DNA from: Bacillota bacterium
Lineage (GTDB): Bacteria; Bacillota; SHA-98; UBA4971
Assembly (NCBI GenBank): GCA_012516125.1
Contig: JAAYXB010000086.1
Coordinates: forward strand, 1 to 54,617
Length of the DNA stretch: 54,617 bases
Direction: 5' to 3'
Part shown: piece after piece, positions 4,826 through 21,059 of the stretch
Numbering within the stretch: position 1 is the stretch's first letter
Layout: every line of letters starts with the position of its first letter
Made by a program: the position numbers and the translations under genes
Notes under the pieces: model-generated
The model's input: only the letters and a program-made list of their open reading frames with translations
What the model was told of the DNA's origin: nothing
The model's database searches: none

Positions 4826-4948
4826 ATGACCTACTGGTTGCGAGATAGCCAGACGCTTCCAGATGCAGTTACCTGTAAAGCCGCATTGCGCGAGGCAGGC
4901 AATGATGCCTGCGAGCGAGGCGGACGAGAAACGAAGGAGGCATCATGA
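4826..4948 (+). CDS. Possible 40-residue leader peptide upstream of the permuted peptide-binding protein
   Basis: A short ORF begins with ATG behind GGAAGGGAG and ends with TGA at 4946-4948, two bases before the TTG start of the next gene and inside that gene's ribosome-binding region. It encodes MTYWLRDSQTLPDAV followed by a charged tail. Position and tight spacing suggest translational coupling or a leader peptide. I know of no homologue, and it may be chance. Confidence 0.3.
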   Translation: MTYWLRDSQTLPDAVTCKAALREAGNDACERGGRETKEAS

Positions 4949-4949
4949 A

Positions 4950-6626
4950 TTGAGAAGAGTGCTTGTTGTGCTCGTGGCCGCGCTTGTGCTTGCGACCATG
5001 AGTGTCGGGCTTGTCAGCGCAGCAAAACCCCTGCCGAAGCTGGTGCTGCTCTCCGGTGACTCTCAGATCGCGAGGCTGTACGCCCAGGGCGTGCAGGAGA
5101 TGATCCGCAAGAACCTGGGCATCCCCCTTGAGATCGAGGCCGTTGACTTCAAGACAAGGCTTCAGAAGATGAGAAACAAGGACTTCCAGATCGTCTTCGC
5201 CGGCTGGGGCGCCGACTACGACGATCCCATGACGTTCCTGGACATGTGGATTACCGACGGGCCGTTCAACGACGTCATGTGGAGCAACCCCAGCTACGAT
5301 AAGCTCATCCAGGTGGCGAAGACCTCTCCTGACGAAGCGGTCCGCATGAAGGCCATGGCCCAGGCGGAGAAGATCCTCATCGGCGAGATGCCAATCGCGC
5401 CTCTTTACTGGCCGGCCTGGAACTTCGTCGAGCATCCCTATGTTAAGAACGTTGTCCGCAAGACCGTCGGTTCTGACTTCGAGTGGAAGTGGGCCTACAC
5501 CGAAGGGCGCCCGGGCGGCGACAAGGATCAGTTCCTCCGTGTGAACTTCGGCGAGGAGCCGCCAGACCTTGACCCAGCCACGTCCACCGACCAGGTGTCC
5601 TTCTGGGTTATCAACGCGACTTATGAGGGCCTTGCCCGGAAGAACCCGGAAATGAAGATTCTCCAGGGTTCCGGCCTTGCCGAGAGCTGGACGGTGTCGA
5701 AGGACCGTAAGGTGTACACCTTCAAGCTCCGCGATGCCAAGTGGAGCGACGGGGTTCCGGTCACCGCGTACGACTTCGAGTACGGCTGGAAGAGGGCTGT
5801 CGATCCCCGCACCGCGTCGCAGTATGCGTACATGATGTACGTCATCAAGAATGCCGAGAAAGTCAACGGCATGGAGGTTCCCGACGACAAGGATCCCAAG
5901 AAAGCCGAAAAGAACAAGGCCATCGACGACGCTCTCGCGACCGTGGGGGTGAAGGCCCTCGATGCGAAGACCCTGCGCGTGGAGCTGGAGGCGCCAACCC
6001 CGTTCTTCCTTGACCTCATCACCTTCATTACCTACATGCCCAGCCCGAAGCATATGGTGGAGAAGCTAGGCGACGAGTACGCCTCCGAGGTCGACAAGAT
6101 GGTGGCGTGCGGGCCGTTTAAGGTCGCCAAGTGGCAGCACGAGTACAAGATCATTCTCGAGAAGAACCCCTACTACTGGGATGCCAAGTCCGTCAAGCTG
6201 CAGCGGATCGAGGCCGACATGATCAAGGACATCGCCACCCCGCTGAACATGTTCGACGCGGGAGAGCTTGACCTCGTTGGTGTCCCCGGCACTTACATCG
6301 AGCAGTACAGAAACAAGGGCATGAGGACCATCGCCGAGGCGACCGCCTGGTACCTCGAGTTCAACTGCAAGCACGAGGTCTTCAAGAACGCAAAGGTCCG
6401 TAAGGCTTTCTCTCTTGCCCTCGACAGGCAGGCTTACGTTGACCACGTGCTGAAGAACGGCTCGCTGCCGGCGACATCTCTCGTGCCGCCAACCATCCAC
6501 GGCAAGGATGGCGTGTCGTTCCACGACGTATACGTCGGCGACCTGTTGCCCAAGAAGGCCGATGTCAAGCTGGCAAAGCAGCTTCTGGCCGAGGGTCTCG
6601 CTGAGCTCGGCTACGCCATGCCTTAA
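4950..6626 (+). CDS. Oligopeptide ABC transporter substrate-binding protein, apparently circularly permuted
   Basis: This family 5 (OppA/DppE-type) binding protein of about 558 residues feeds the permeases and ATPases that follow. Start: TTG at 4950, with AAGGAGG 9 nt upstream. Residues 1-24 are a signal peptide ending VGLVSA with no lipobox Cys. Residues 25-185 (LPKLVLLSGDSQ through FAGWGADYDDPMTFLDMW to WKWAYTE) are what is normally the C-terminal lobe. A linker GRPGGDKD follows, then residues 194-558 begin with the usual N-terminal FGEEPPDLDPATS, continue through the LRDAKWSDG motif and end LLAEGLAELGYAMP. Family order is signal, N-lobe, C-lobe. Here the C-lobe comes first, and the protein's last residues would join its mature N-terminus naturally. 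Total length is normal, so nothing is missing. Confidence 0.9.
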   Translation: MRRVLVVLVAALVLATMSVGLVSAAKPLPKLVLLSGDSQIARLYAQGVQEMIRKNLGIPLEIEAVDFKTRLQKMRNKDFQIVFAGWGADYDDPMTFLDMWITDGPFNDVMWSNPSYDKLIQVAKTSPDEAVRMKAMAQAEKILIGEMPIAPLYWPAWNFVEHPYVKNVVRKTVGSDFEWKWAYTEGRPGGDKDQFLRVNFGEEPPDLDPATSTDQVSFWVINATYEGLARKNPEMKILQGSGLAESWTVSKDRKVYTFKLRDAKWSDGVPVTAYDFEYGWKRAVDPRTASQYAYMMYVIKNAEKVNGMEVPDDKDPKKAEKNKAIDDALATVGVKALDAKTLRVELEAPTPFFLDLITFITYMPSPKHMVEKLGDEYASEVDKMVACGPFKVAKWQHEYKIILEKNPYYWDAKSVKLQRIEADMIKDIATPLNMFDAGELDLVGVPGTYIEQYRNKGMRTIAEATAWYLEFNCKHEVFKNAKVRKAFSLALDRQAYVDHVLKNGSLPATSLVPPTIHGKDGVSFHDVYVGDLLPKKADVKLAKQLLAEGLAELGYAMP

Positions 6627-6829: not shown

Positions 6830-7756
6830 TTGGGACGCTATATACTCAGGCGGTTCGGGCTGATGCTTGCCGCGCTATGGGTGATCGTCACAGCCACTTT
6901 CTTTCTGATGCACGCCATCCCGGGCGATCCGTTCCTGGGCGAGAAGGTGACTGAGGCGATCCGCCAGAATATGCTTCGCAAGTACGGCCTCGACAAGCCC
7001 CTCTGGGAGCAATACGTGATTTATCTGGGAAATCTCTTGCGCGGGGATTTCGGCACTTCCCTGAAGATGCTTCACCGCTCGGTAAACGACATGATCCGCG
7101 ACGGGTTCCCCGTCTCGGCGCTTCTGGGCCTCGAGGCGCTCGCGTACGCGGTGACCCTCGGTCTCCTTCTGGGCACCGTCGCCGGGTTTCGGCACAACAC
7201 GTGGCTGGACTACCTTGCGATGTTCGTGGCGCTCATAGGCATCTCGGTGCCGGGGTTCATCATGGGTGGGCTTATGCAGTACGTTATCGGCCTCAAGCTC
7301 AGATGGCTCCCAATAGCCCGGTGGGAGGGCTTCAGGTACACGATCATGCCCGCCGCTGCTCTGGGGCTTGGCACACTCGCGGTAATGGCGAGGATGATGC
7401 GCACGAGCGTGCTCGAAGTCACGAGCCAGGACTACATCAAGACTGCCAAGGCTAAAGGCCTCTCGCAGAGGGAGATCGTCTTTCGCCACGTGCTGCGGAA
7501 CGCGATCCTTCCCATCGTGACCATCCTCGGGCCGCTCACAGCAGGCATCGTGACAGGCAGCTTCGTCATCGAGCTGATCTTCGGCATACCAGGGCTCGGC
7601 AAGTACTACGTGCAGAGCATCTTCAACCGGGACTACACGCTCATCCTGGGGACGACGATCTTCTACGCCGTTCTCCTCGTGTTCCTGAACTTCCTGGTTG
7701 ATGTGGCTTACGGGATCATCGACCCGCGGATCCGGCTCATGAGAAGCAGGGAGTGA
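6830..7756 (+). CDS. Peptide ABC transporter permease, OppB/DppB type
   Basis: This 308-residue inner-membrane permease has about six helices. The family start MGRYILRRFGLML comes from TTG at 6830 with AAAGGAG 8 nt upstream; the frame is open further upstream but that part is unlike the family. HAIPGDPF near residue 30 and the EAA loop (DYIKTAKAKGLSQREIVFRHVLRNA) identify the OppB/DppB family and its ATPase contact. It is the second gene of the operon started by the permuted binding protein, and its stop overlaps the next start (TGATG). Confidence 0.93.
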   Translation: MGRYILRRFGLMLAALWVIVTATFFLMHAIPGDPFLGEKVTEAIRQNMLRKYGLDKPLWEQYVIYLGNLLRGDFGTSLKMLHRSVNDMIRDGFPVSALLGLEALAYAVTLGLLLGTVAGFRHNTWLDYLAMFVALIGISVPGFIMGGLMQYVIGLKLRWLPIARWEGFRYTIMPAAALGLGTLAVMARMMRTSVLEVTSQDYIKTAKAKGLSQREIVFRHVLRNAILPIVTILGPLTAGIVTGSFVIELIFGIPGLGKYYVQSIFNRDYTLILGTTIFYAVLLVFLNFLVDVAYGIIDPRIRLMRSRE

Positions 7757-8688
7757 TGAGATTGGCATCAGCGCAAGAGATAACACAGGACATGTTCGAA
7801 CCGTTGCAGCTTGGAGCGGGCGAAGGTGAAGCCATCACGCGTCCGCCCATAAGTTACTGGCGCGAGGTTGCGAGGCGCTTCAGGCGCAACCGCCTTGCCG
7901 TGGCGGGCCTTGTCATCCTCGTGGCTCTTCTCGCGTTCGCATTCATAGGGCCGTTTCTCACGCCCTGGGACCCCAGGGAACAGAGCCTGTTCGACACGAA
8001 CAAGCCGCCGTCGGCGGAGCATTGGTTCGGCACGGACAACCTCGGACGCGACATATTCGCAAGGCTGTGCTACGGCATCAAGATCTCGCTCTTCGTCGGG
8101 ATCATGGCCGCCCTCATTGACCTCGTGGTGGGCGTGATCTACGGCGGCATCTCGGGGTACTTCGGCGGGGTGGTAGACGATGTCATGATGAGGATCGTGG
8201 ACATACTCTATGGCATCCCTTACATCATCGTCGCCATCCTTCTCCTCGTGGTCATCGGCCCCGGCCTCTGGTCGGTGATCCTGGCCATGACCATCACCGG
8301 ATGGGTCGGCATGGCGAGGCTCGTGCGCGGACAGGTGCTCCAGCTCAAGGAGCAGGAATTCGTGCTGGCGGCGCGGGTGCTGGGGGCAAGCCACCTCGGG
8401 ATAATCCTCCGGCACCTCATCCCCAACGCCATGGGTGTCATCATCGTCCAGATGACGTTCACCATTCCCGGCGCCATATTCGGCGAGGCCTTCCTGAGCT
8501 TCATAGGGCTCGGCGTGCCGCTGCCTCTCGCGAGTCTCGGCACCATGGCGAACGACGGGTATCAGTATCTTCGGATATACCCTTACCAGCTGATCATCCC
8601 GGCGATCGCCATCATCATGACCATGCTCGGGTTCAACTTCGTGGGCGACGGCCTGCGAGACGCGCTTGACCCGAAGCTGCGGAGGTGA
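7756..8688 (+). CDS. Peptide ABC transporter permease, OppC/DppC type
   Basis: This roughly 310-residue partner permease has a cytoplasmic N-terminus with the OppC_N element YWREVARRFRRNRLAVAGL, then HWFGTDNLGRDIFARLCYG (near residue 90), which is diagnostic for OppC/DppC. The EAA-loop equivalent is EFVLAARVLGASHLGIILRHLIPNA, and the C-terminus GDGLRDALDPKLRR is typical. The ATG at 7756 shares its A with the upstream TGA stop; an in-frame GTG lies one codon before. It forms the pore with the preceding permease. Confidence 0.93.
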   Translation: MRLASAQEITQDMFEPLQLGAGEGEAITRPPISYWREVARRFRRNRLAVAGLVILVALLAFAFIGPFLTPWDPREQSLFDTNKPPSAEHWFGTDNLGRDIFARLCYGIKISLFVGIMAALIDLVVGVIYGGISGYFGGVVDDVMMRIVDILYGIPYIIVAILLLVVIGPGLWSVILAMTITGWVGMARLVRGQVLQLKEQEFVLAARVLGASHLGIILRHLIPNAMGVIIVQMTFTIPGAIFGEAFLSFIGLGVPLPLASLGTMANDGYQYLRIYPYQLIIPAIAIIMTMLGFNFVGDGLRDALDPKLRR

Positions 8689-8693
8689 GAAGG

Positions 8694-9740
8694 ATGGCTG
8701 GGGAAAGATTGCTTGACGTCAAGAATCTCGAGGTGTCCTTCTACACCTACGCCGGCAAGGTGCATGCGGTGCGCGGCGTCTCGTTCCACGTCAACAGGGG
8801 CGAGACCCTGGCAATAGTGGGCGAGTCCGGCTGCGGCAAGACCGTCTCGGTGCAATCGACCATCAAGCTCATACCGATGCCGCCCGGGAAGATCGAAGGG
8901 GGCACGGTGCTGTTTGACGGCAAGGACCTCACCGCCATGAGCGATCGCGACCTTCAGAGCGTGAGGGGCGCGGAGATCGGCGTGATATTCCAGGATCCCA
9001 TGACGTCGCTGAACCCCACCATGACGGTGGGAAGGCAGATCACCGAGGGTCTCATCAAGCACCAGAGGCTCAGCGCCCAGGAGGCAAAGCACCGGGCCAT
9101 CGAAATGCTATCGCTGGTCGAGATACCAAACCCGAAGGAGAGGTTCCGCCAGTATCCGCACCAGTTCAGCGGCGGTATGAGACAGCGCGTCATGATCGCC
9201 ATCGCGCTCTCATGCAACCCGAAACTGCTCATCGCGGACGAGCCCACCACAGGCCTCGACGTAACCATCCAGGCTCAGATACTCGACCTCATGAAGAGCC
9301 TGCAAACGAAGCTCGACACGTCCATAATCCTGATAACCCATGACCTCGGCGTGGTCTCGAAGCTGGCCGACAGGATAGTGGTCATGTACGCAGGAAAGGT
9401 TGCCGAGGCCGGTAGTTCCGAGGACATTTTCTATAACGCCCTGCATCCATACACTCAAGCGCTTCTGAAGTCGGTGCCCAGGCTTCATGAAGAGACCAAG
9501 AGGGAGCTTCTCGCCATCCCCGGGACGCCTCCAGATCTTTTCGTGCCTCCGAAAGGATGCGCCTTCGCGCCACGCTGCAGCTACGCGATGAGGGTGTGCC
9601 TGGACCACCAGCCCGGGGACTTCGCAGCAGGCGGTAGCCACACCGTGGCCTGCTGGCTTATGGACCCCAGGGCCGCGCATGTCAGAGAAAGACACGCCGG
9701 CAGGGCCGGGGATGCCGGGGCCAGAGGAGGCGCAAGCTGA
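8694..9740 (+). CDS. Peptide ABC transporter ATP-binding protein, OppD/DppD type
   Basis: This 348-residue cytoplasmic ATPase has Walker [10 protein letters not shown]-loop [10 protein letters not shown], signature FSGGMRQR, Walker B LLIADEPT and H-loop THD. The C-terminal oligopeptide/dipeptide domain (GTPPDL, then CAFAPRC..A...C) carries the cysteines that bind an Fe-S cluster in some family members. The ATG at 8694 follows GGAGGTGAGAAGG. It pairs with the next gene as an ATPase heterodimer. Confidence 0.93.
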
Positions 9741-10705
9741 TGGTTCACGACACGCAGGATACGGTTCTGGAGGTAGTAAACCTCAAGAAGTACTTCCAGT
9801 TCGGCCGGAGAGCGGTCCTCAAGGCCGTGGACGACGTGACCTTCTCCGTAAGAAAGGGCGAGGTGTTCGGCCTGGTGGGGGAGAGCGGCTGCGGCAAGAC
9901 AACCGTGGGCCGCACGATCGTGGGGCTTTACAGCCCCACAGCCGGCAAAGTCCTCTACAAAGGCGAGGACACGAGCAGGCTGAAGGGCGCCGAGGTCAAG
10001 AAGTTCAAGCGCCGGGTACAAATGATCTTCCAGGACCCGTATGCGTCCCTGGACCCCCGGATGACGGTGGGAGACATCATAGGGGAAGCCCTCGACATCC
10101 ACAGGCTGGCAAGGGGCAAAGAGCGGCTCGCCAGGATACATGAGCTTCTGAACGTCGTGGGGCTGTCGGCAGAGCACGCCAACAGGTTCCCGCACGAGTT
10201 CTCCGGGGGCCAGCGCCAGCGCATCGGGATAGCTCGCGCCCTCGCGGTCGACCCCGAGTTCATCGTGGCCGACGAGCCCATCTCGGCGCTGGACGTGTCC
10301 ATTCAGGCACAGGTCGTGAACCTGCTGTCGCGCCTGCGGGAGGAGAGAGGCCTCACGTACATCTTCATAGCTCACGACCTCGCAATGGTAAAGCATCTCT
10401 CCGACAACGTCGGCGTAATGTACCTGGGCAGGCTGGTTGAGCTTGCTCCCAGCGCGGAGCTTTACAAGAACCCGCTCCATCCCTACACCCAGGGACTCCT
10501 GTCGGCGATCCCCATCCCGGACCCCAGGGTTGAGAGGGAGAGAAAGCGGATCGTCCTCGAAGGCGAGGTCCCGAGCCCTGTTAACCCGCCGAAGGGCTGC
10601 AGGTTCCAGACCCGGTGCAGGCACGCAAAACCGGCGTGCCGCGAGGAGGACCCGAAGCTCAAGCCGGTGGCCCCGGGCCATTTTGCGGCGTGCCACCTGT
10701 ACTAG
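9740..10705 (+). CDS. Peptide ABC transporter ATP-binding protein, OppF/DppF type
   Basis: This 321-residue ATPase begins with the OppF-type [23 protein letters not shown]. It has Walker [28 protein letters not shown], signature [16 protein letters not shown], Walker [15 protein letters not shown], and the C-terminal cysteine-rich region ([11 protein letters not shown]...C). Its ATG overlaps the upstream TGA (TGATG). It completes a five-component importer. The operon ends at the hairpin at 10717-10747. Confidence 0.93.
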
Positions 10706-19376: not shown

Positions 19377-21059
19377 ATGTTCCGTGGAGGCCGCATGATA
19401 GTCACATTGTTGCTGGTGGCTGCACTGGTGCTGGGAAGCACGCTCCTGGCCAGCGGCGAGGAACAAAAGCCCAAGTACGGCGGCATCTGGAAGGACGCCC
19501 TCGGCGCAGATCCCCCCGGACCTTGACCCCGTCATGGCAACTGATACCACTTCGGCTGAGGTCGGTTATCAGATTTTCGAGACTCTGGTCGCCATCGACC
19601 CTGACGGCGAGATCGTGCCCCTTCTGGCAGAATCGTGGAAAGCTTCTCCCGACGGCAAGACCTTCACATTCAAGCTGCGCAAGGGAGTGCACTTCCATAA
19701 GACCACCGAAGGCGGCAAGCCCACCGCCAACGGCGGCCGGGAAGTCACCGCGGACGACTGGGTGTGGACGTTCAACTACATCTGCGATCCGAAAACCAAT
19801 TCCCCGCGAGCGTACTTCATCGATATGGTGAAGGGTTACAAGGAATACCGCGAGGGGAAGGCCCAGTCGATCTCGGGTATCAAGGCTCTCGACAAGTATA
19901 CGCTCCAGATCGAGACCACCTACCCGTTCGCCCGTTTATCGCGGTGCTCAGCTACAACACCTTTGTGGTCCTGCCCAAGGAGGACGTGCTGAAGTGGGGC
20001 AAGGATTGGAACTTCCACGTGGTGGGCACCGGACCATTCAAGTTCGAATACTGGAAGCACGATGACAAGCTGGTGCTGTCGCGCAACGAGAACTACTGGA
20101 TGAAGGACAAGTGGGGCAACAGGCTTCCCTATCTCGACGGCATCGAGTTCAGGATCATTACCGACGCCACCATTGAGTGGACCGAGTACAAGCTAGGCAA
20201 CCTCTATGCCACCCACGTAGATGACCCGTACTATCCCGAGGCTTCTAAGGGCCTGAAGGTCATCAATGGCGTGAAGACCGCCGTGAATGAGCTGGGCACT
20301 TACCTTGAGAGGCCACAGCTGGGCACTTACTACTACGGCATGAACCAGACCCTCCCTCCGTTCAAGGGCAACAAGTACCTCAGACAGGCGTTCAACTACG
20401 CCATCAACAGGCAGGCGCTCATCGACTTCGTGCTCAACGGCCGCGCCATGCCCGCCAAGGGCGTGCTTCCGCCCGGCATGTTCGCGTACAACGAGAACCT
20501 CAAAGGCTATACCTACGATCCGAAGATGGCCAAGGACCTCCTTAAGAAGGCCGGGTATCCCAAGGGTGTCCAGGTGACGCTCCAGTACAACACGAGCCAG
20601 GGCCACAAGAGGATAGCTGAGGCTCTCCAGGCTCAGTTCGCTCAAGTGGGCATCAAGATCGACCTTAAGAACGTGGACTGGGGCGCCCACCTCGATACGT
20701 GCGGCACTCAGGGCACGGTGCCTTTCTTCCGCATGGGCTGGGTCGTCGACTACCCTGACCCGGACAACTTCCTATACGTGTTGCTTAACTCCGATAACTT
20801 CGGAGACCCGGGCAACTACACGAGGTACCATAACCCGCTGTTCGACGACCTCACGAAGCAGGCCAGACTCGCCACCGACCAGGAGGTCCGGAGGAAACTG
20901 TACCAGAAGGCCGAGCAGATCGTGGTTGAGGATGCGCCGTGGGTGTTCATCTACCACTACACGAGCCACAATATGCTCAAGCCGTTCGTGCGGGGATACA
21001 AGCTCCCGTCGTTCGGTCAGTACTGCAACAAGTTCACGGAGGTCTGGCTTGATCTGTGA
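19377..21059 (+). pseudogene. Peptide ABC transporter substrate-binding protein, two compensating frameshifts
   Basis: A full-length (about 560-codon) family 5 binding protein in normal domain order. It opens with the signal peptide MFRGGRMIVTLLLVAALVLG (no lipobox Cys) behind a perfect GAAGGAGGT. The frame breaks after GADPP at a run of six Cs (19512-19517; five would restore DPPDLDP). It continues in another frame from MATDTTSAEVG to IETTYPFA, then returns at a three-C run (19931-19933; four would give PFAPFIAVL). After that it is intact to KFTEVWLDL. Both breaks are in C runs and cancel, so base-calling error or very recent decay is likely. Downstream permeases are intact, favouring a working gene. 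Confidence 0.8.

Follow-up and report, generated by a model that had tools for sequence, protein, structure and literature searches.

The window analysed here, a stretch of 54,617 nucleotides that makes up contig C74 of a draft genome (3.24 Mb, 98 contigs), carries a gene, permA, whose product is by alignment an ordinary peptide-uptake receptor with its chain order shuffled, so that the usual last third now comes first. We hold it very probable that permA is a genuine gene under selection, that its product is a naturally circularly permuted peptide-binding protein of OppA type (SBP_bac_5, cluster C), and that this protein serves the OppBCDF importer encoded downstream as its receptor. Our results also indicate that permutation of this kind has occurred at least five times independently in this family within Bacillota, judging from trees and cut sites of the forms that we call A (permA and its relatives), B, C, D1 and D2.

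A reordered binding protein at the head of an opp operon

The permuted gene, its segments and the importer genes lie as follows.
4935..4941, + strand: Shine-Dalgarno-like AAGGAGG, read from the sequence
4950..6626, + strand: permuted SBP gene permA, 558 aa, TTG start, TAA stop
4950..5024, + strand: signal peptide, residues 1-25 (...GLVSAA), without a lipobox; read from the sequence, kept in eight relatives
5025..5507, + strand: piece 1, the normal C-terminal third, residues 26-186 (KPLPKLVLL...WAYTEG); OppA match, Pfam profile 288-366
5508..5525, + strand: linker RPGGDK between the former C- and N-termini; RPGGD conserved in every aligned permA member
5526..6623, + strand: piece 2, the normal N-terminal two thirds, residues 193-558 (DQFLRVNF...LAELGYAMP); OppA match, Pfam profile 5-279
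6830..7756, + strand: OppB-type permease (Pfam BPD_transp_1), conserved beside permA
7753..8688, + strand: OppC-type permease (Pfam OppC_N, BPD_transp_1)
8685..9740, + strand: OppD-type ATPase (Pfam ABC_tran, oligo_HPY)
9740..10705, + strand: OppF-type ATPase (Pfam ABC_tran, oligo_HPY)

The whole protein scores 288.5 bits against Pfam SBP_bac_5 (PF00496), whose curated cut-off is 32.4. Within one open frame, profile positions 288-366 match at 5031-5267 and positions 5-279 only afterwards, at 5673-6605, the reverse of the usual segment order; permA is, on these matches, a member of SBP_bac_5 by descent and not by order. In a phmmer search of PDB chains, the match to Bacillus subtilis OppA (PDB 8are) has an overall E-value of 1e-92, with permA residues 185-556 corresponding to OppA 11-363 and residues 23-175 to OppA 363-516. 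The pieces thus meet at OppA residue 363, and each segment is covered once, without overlap or loss. The complete, exchanged pieces were also found against NCBIfam. The initial annotation had proposed a C-terminal segment followed by a linker and the N-terminal part, joined as ...KWAYTE-GRPGGDKD-QFLRVNFGEEPPDLDPATS; the junction reads as it was given, and the Pfam and OppA alignments agree on the swapped order. Rejoining the ends restores the family order at a normal length, as had also been proposed, since both pieces are complete against OppA and the protein has 558 residues. Piece 1 holds the second half of lobe II and the C-terminal strands of lobe I, and the linker stands where a normal protein has its C-terminal tail and its N-terminal tether.

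The gene start is conserved. An AGGAGG core lies just 5' of it in all seven species compared, and several congeners have ATG in place of TTG at the same position. The N-terminal hydrophobic leader ends in VSAA and is conserved in relatives, as expected of an exported protein. Wherever the contig extends far enough, permA is the first gene of the opp operon, and its nearest normal-order relatives likewise head the corresponding oppBCDF. No close normal-order paralog of permA was found in the same genome, the next best match having 32% identity. Its position at the operon head and the lack of such a paralog suggest that the permA protein is very probably the receptor of the adjacent OppBCDF importer. 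It resembles B. subtilis OppA in family, size, the GWGADYDDP stretch and position at the head of oppBCDF, and differs in being circularly permuted and, in this genome, in having no lipobox.

The window contains a second binding protein (19402-21056). The initial annotation was right that its order is normal, but here it is split over two frames, the open stretches being 196 and 452 codons long and the shift lying near 19932-19947. Its relatives in congeners are single open frames of 564-591 aa, and the split is either a draft indel or a young pseudogene.

Inheritance and selection

The nearest named database records are Bacillota MAGs (MAG-64, Yes71-24, UBA6811). Colinear, full-length permA genes occur in four congeners (99, 96, 96 and 93% identity) and in two genomes from another family of the same class (66%). 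The gene is also colinear in two single-contig genomes of a third family, G200 (55%) and G375 (56%, the match running across one TGA). The initial annotation had suggested looking for relatives with the same junction linker; RPGGD is present in every member aligned. Between species dN/dS is 0.018-0.069, by which measure permA is under strong purifying selection. Because the window belongs to a draft in 98 contigs and normal relatives of the f66 family do occur in tandem, reads from two adjacent normal oppA genes might have been joined in the wrong order. However, the identical order and linker recur in independent assemblies, single-contig genomes included, and codons across the whole of permA evolve under purifying selection. 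We therefore regard misassembly of tandem oppA copies as refuted, its probability being close to nil, and chance as excluded by the same colinear relatives; permA is, on this comparative evidence, inherited and selected and not a product of assembly. Matches from Melainabacteria/Obscuribacter were considered as permuted relatives and rejected, being in normal order. In plasmid searches the best matches listed were two-piece with less than 60% identity, and the three that were fetched had the normal order.

Repeated permutation within Bacillota

Whereas the initial annotation treated the permuted gene as an isolated curiosity, the family has at least five independent cases, three of them in this genome. 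Besides permA, the latter are:
contig C89 (L034:2684-4255), - strand: permuted SBP B (permB), DppA-like, same cut loop as A
contig C7 (L035:1568-3262), - strand: permuted SBP C (permC), AppA-like, different cut site

Residues 254-538 of permB correspond to DppA 72-368 and residues 66-192 to DppA 389-518, while permC residues 432-560 correspond to AppA 86-210 and residues 36-316 to AppA 212-487. The cut in C lies after the stretch GTGPFxLxxxxxGxxxxLxxNPxYW, and the nearest relatives of B and C differ. Among 398 sampled Bacillota genomes A is present in 9, B in about 25 and C in 27. By our count about 44 of the 398 carry one or more of the permuted types, counting D1, a share that is no unbiased rate because the sample includes nearly the whole small class to which the window belongs. 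One genome (G271) has a permuted protein as its sole SBP_bac_5 protein, and another (G160) has four permuted ones. The OppC partner of C (L049:6491-7966 and in other C operons) is about 490-510 aa long and has about 190 additional residues separating OppC_N from the permease domain.

Permuted proteins were re-cut to normal order, and a 73-row tree was built from them together with normal relatives. In this quick tree, built without bootstrap and containing some long normal branches, permA groups with normal f66 proteins (support 99) and permB with normal f66, f116 and f137 proteins (support 100), while permC stands apart. The closest normal relatives have about 50-56% identity to A and 59-61% to B. 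The well-supported branches require that A, B, C and D1 arose separately, by four events. AU tests reject single clades of A+B (p 6e-4), B+D1 (p 2e-56) and D1+D2 (p 1.6e-4). That A, B and D1 share a cut loop might point to one ancient permutation common to A, B, C and D, with the normal-order relatives as later reversions. Against this, C and D2 are cut elsewhere, normal-order relatives accompany each permuted clade separately, the three pairings above are rejected and many exact reversions would be needed. We consider a single ancient permutation highly improbable and largely refuted; reversion is possible within the D clade alone.

The D locus came from a search of the class of genome G372, and normal-order orthologs were fetched from 13 genomes. 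Here one orthologous SBP occurs in three orders, normal, D1 and D2, the proteins being roughly 60-80% identical to D1. The D1 order, in G372, uses the same cut loop as A and B. The D2 order, in six genomes, is cut between VRVIYIGFN and PFEDVRVRQAL; these proteins have a signal peptide and acidic tether as in the normal protein of the genus (e.g. GGCAPDEEVVDEPVDE), followed by the new start. Normal and D2 genes are flanked alike, by two upstream genes and by oppBCDF downstream, the contig of G430 stopping short of the upstream genes. Within one genus (g278) the order is normal in G429 and D2 in G432, G433 and G434, with neighbours conserved. The SBP orthologs at loci L190-L195 differ in chain order from those at L196-L207, and from that at L208. 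In the tree of the locus, D2-type genes are interspersed with normal ones, and D2 as one clade is weakly rejected (AU p 0.022), though not when G430 is left out (p 0.33). D2 may thus represent two events, or one with reversion or gene conversion. We tentatively suggest, with somewhat less than even confidence, that family 5 binding proteins of Bacillota are prone to permutation, their order changing repeatedly, at one preferred loop and elsewhere, in place at orthologous loci, and perhaps reverting, and that D2, given the interleaving and the weakly rejected clade, had several origins, went back to normal order or underwent partial conversion by a normal copy.

Fold, tethering and route of origin

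In OppA structures both termini lie in lobe I, into which lobe II is inserted. The aspartate of the GWxADYxDP stretch, which permA retains, helps to hold the amino end of the peptide. The permA protein would fold as the usual two-lobed Venus flytrap and bind peptides as usual. Joining the old termini, adjacent in lobe I, should cost little, and the new ends would fall in lobe II, in the exposed loop that separates the helix ending in LLxxGLxELG from the strand LPKLVLL. For types A, B and D1 the predicted order is the second half of lobe II, C-terminal lobe I, N-terminal lobe I and the first half of lobe II. Lobe I would thereby become an insert in lobe II and the lobe crossings would stay two, so that neither closure on the ligand nor docking on OppBC should be affected. 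Where a tether is present, it would shift from lobe I to lobe II. The AlphaFold model of permA is moderate (mean pLDDT 68.5, pTM 0.66), its better parts agreeing with the secondary structure of the family. Foldseek matched only one piece of the model to OppA, over about 380 columns; the tool does not align across a permutation. Both by sequence and by fold, the top-ranking matches are peptide binders of cluster C.

TpMglB-2 (Tp0684) is a circularly permuted glucose-binding protein described as 'Type Ic / Cluster Bc' (PMC4990184). Like permA, it is a natural permutant of an ABC-importer binding protein; it has relatives in Gram-positive bacteria, and its function is kept. It belongs to cluster B, is sugar-binding, has another cut and gains a fourth lobe crossing, whereas permA is a cluster C protein and lies outside that type definition (cluster B sugar-binding fold, permuted N lobe; PMC4990184). 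It was described as one family and not as repeated events. The TpMglB-2 authors proposed adaptation to anchoring (PMC4990184), and repeated events here suggest a permissive loop or a benefit, so that the permuted proteins could have a changed role, as a tethered sensor or with altered docking, the permutation being selected for moving the anchored end to lobe II. We think this unlikely, since within the same operon permuted proteins take the place of the normal one, a lipobox is absent from permuted A and C and from much of B, and the lipobox tracks envelope type and not order. In the genomes with Omp85 (this one, G014, G200 and G160) permuted proteins have no clear lipobox, which is likewise absent from the normal SBPs checked in this genome. 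In those without Omp85 (G023, G351, G372, G261 and G221) it is present on the checked SBPs, normal or permuted, some lipoboxes being read by eye where the script pattern missed them. Lgt was found in all nine genomes compared for tethering. As the lipobox follows the Omp85 envelope marker, permutation is independent of tethering, and we reject tethering as its driver. The Omp85 protein of this genome (contig C89:74670-75581) suggests an outer membrane in this member of the Bacillota. The function of permA is most likely ordinary, that of receptor of its own OppBCDF importer.

Duplication followed by deletion is the general model of natural circular permutation (PMC3281007), and permA resembles such permutants in that two segments are fully exchanged and a short linker joins the old termini. 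In contrast to the general model, permA is secreted, its signal peptide staying in front, and the family has at least five events, with normal and permuted orthologs at one locus. We lean towards an origin in which the mature body was duplicated in frame and in tandem downstream of a single signal peptide, after which the front of copy 1 would have been deleted and copy 2 truncated, with the signal peptide kept. This is the route that the initial annotation had put forward: natural permutation with a retained signal peptide is strongly supported, and duplication with loss of the outer parts is likeliest while still inferred. Duplication is common at these loci, with f66 tandem pairs before oppBCDF and tandem permuted C genes. 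Tandem pairs of normal A-like SBPs were seen at L138, L139 and L160, of which the first two immediately precede oppBCDF; permuted C genes are likewise paired at L146, L175 and L176. No double-length intermediate or remnant SBP gene was found. Separate trees of the two permA pieces gave no pointer to two different parent copies; parentage from two tandem copies was rejected, because each piece groups with normal relatives of one and the same kind, and the tandem pair in f66 seems younger than its split from A. The short similarity between the bases after the stop and those at the mature start, which the initial annotation read as a possible breakpoint scar, finds no support as such, as the bases after the stop differ among related species; the permutation predates the split of genomes only 55-66% identical in permA protein, so that no nucleotide scar could survive. 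Fission into two genes that were subsequently joined in reverse order, with a new signal peptide in front, is also a general route for circular permutation (PMC3281007) and would likewise leave both pieces complete. Nevertheless, a separate half of a secreted two-lobed protein would require its own signal peptide, no split SBP pair was seen, and the signal peptide and acidic tether of D2 match the normal gene of the same genus. This route seems rather improbable to us, and duplication followed by deletion remains our preferred reading.

Natural permutation of binding proteins was already known. We found no report of a permuted family 5 or Opp/Dpp protein in the open-licence literature; within that literature, permutation in this family, its repeated occurrence and the comparison of both orders at one locus appear to be new. 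Permuted SBPs escape notice in annotation because order-dependent domain models report two pieces under an ordinary name. The origin and spread of natural circular permutations have so far been argued mostly from old, isolated cases. This family offers several independent events, one reused cut loop, and normal and permuted orthologs that are roughly 70-85% identical with conserved neighbours, so that origin, folding order, export and tethering can be compared in pairs.
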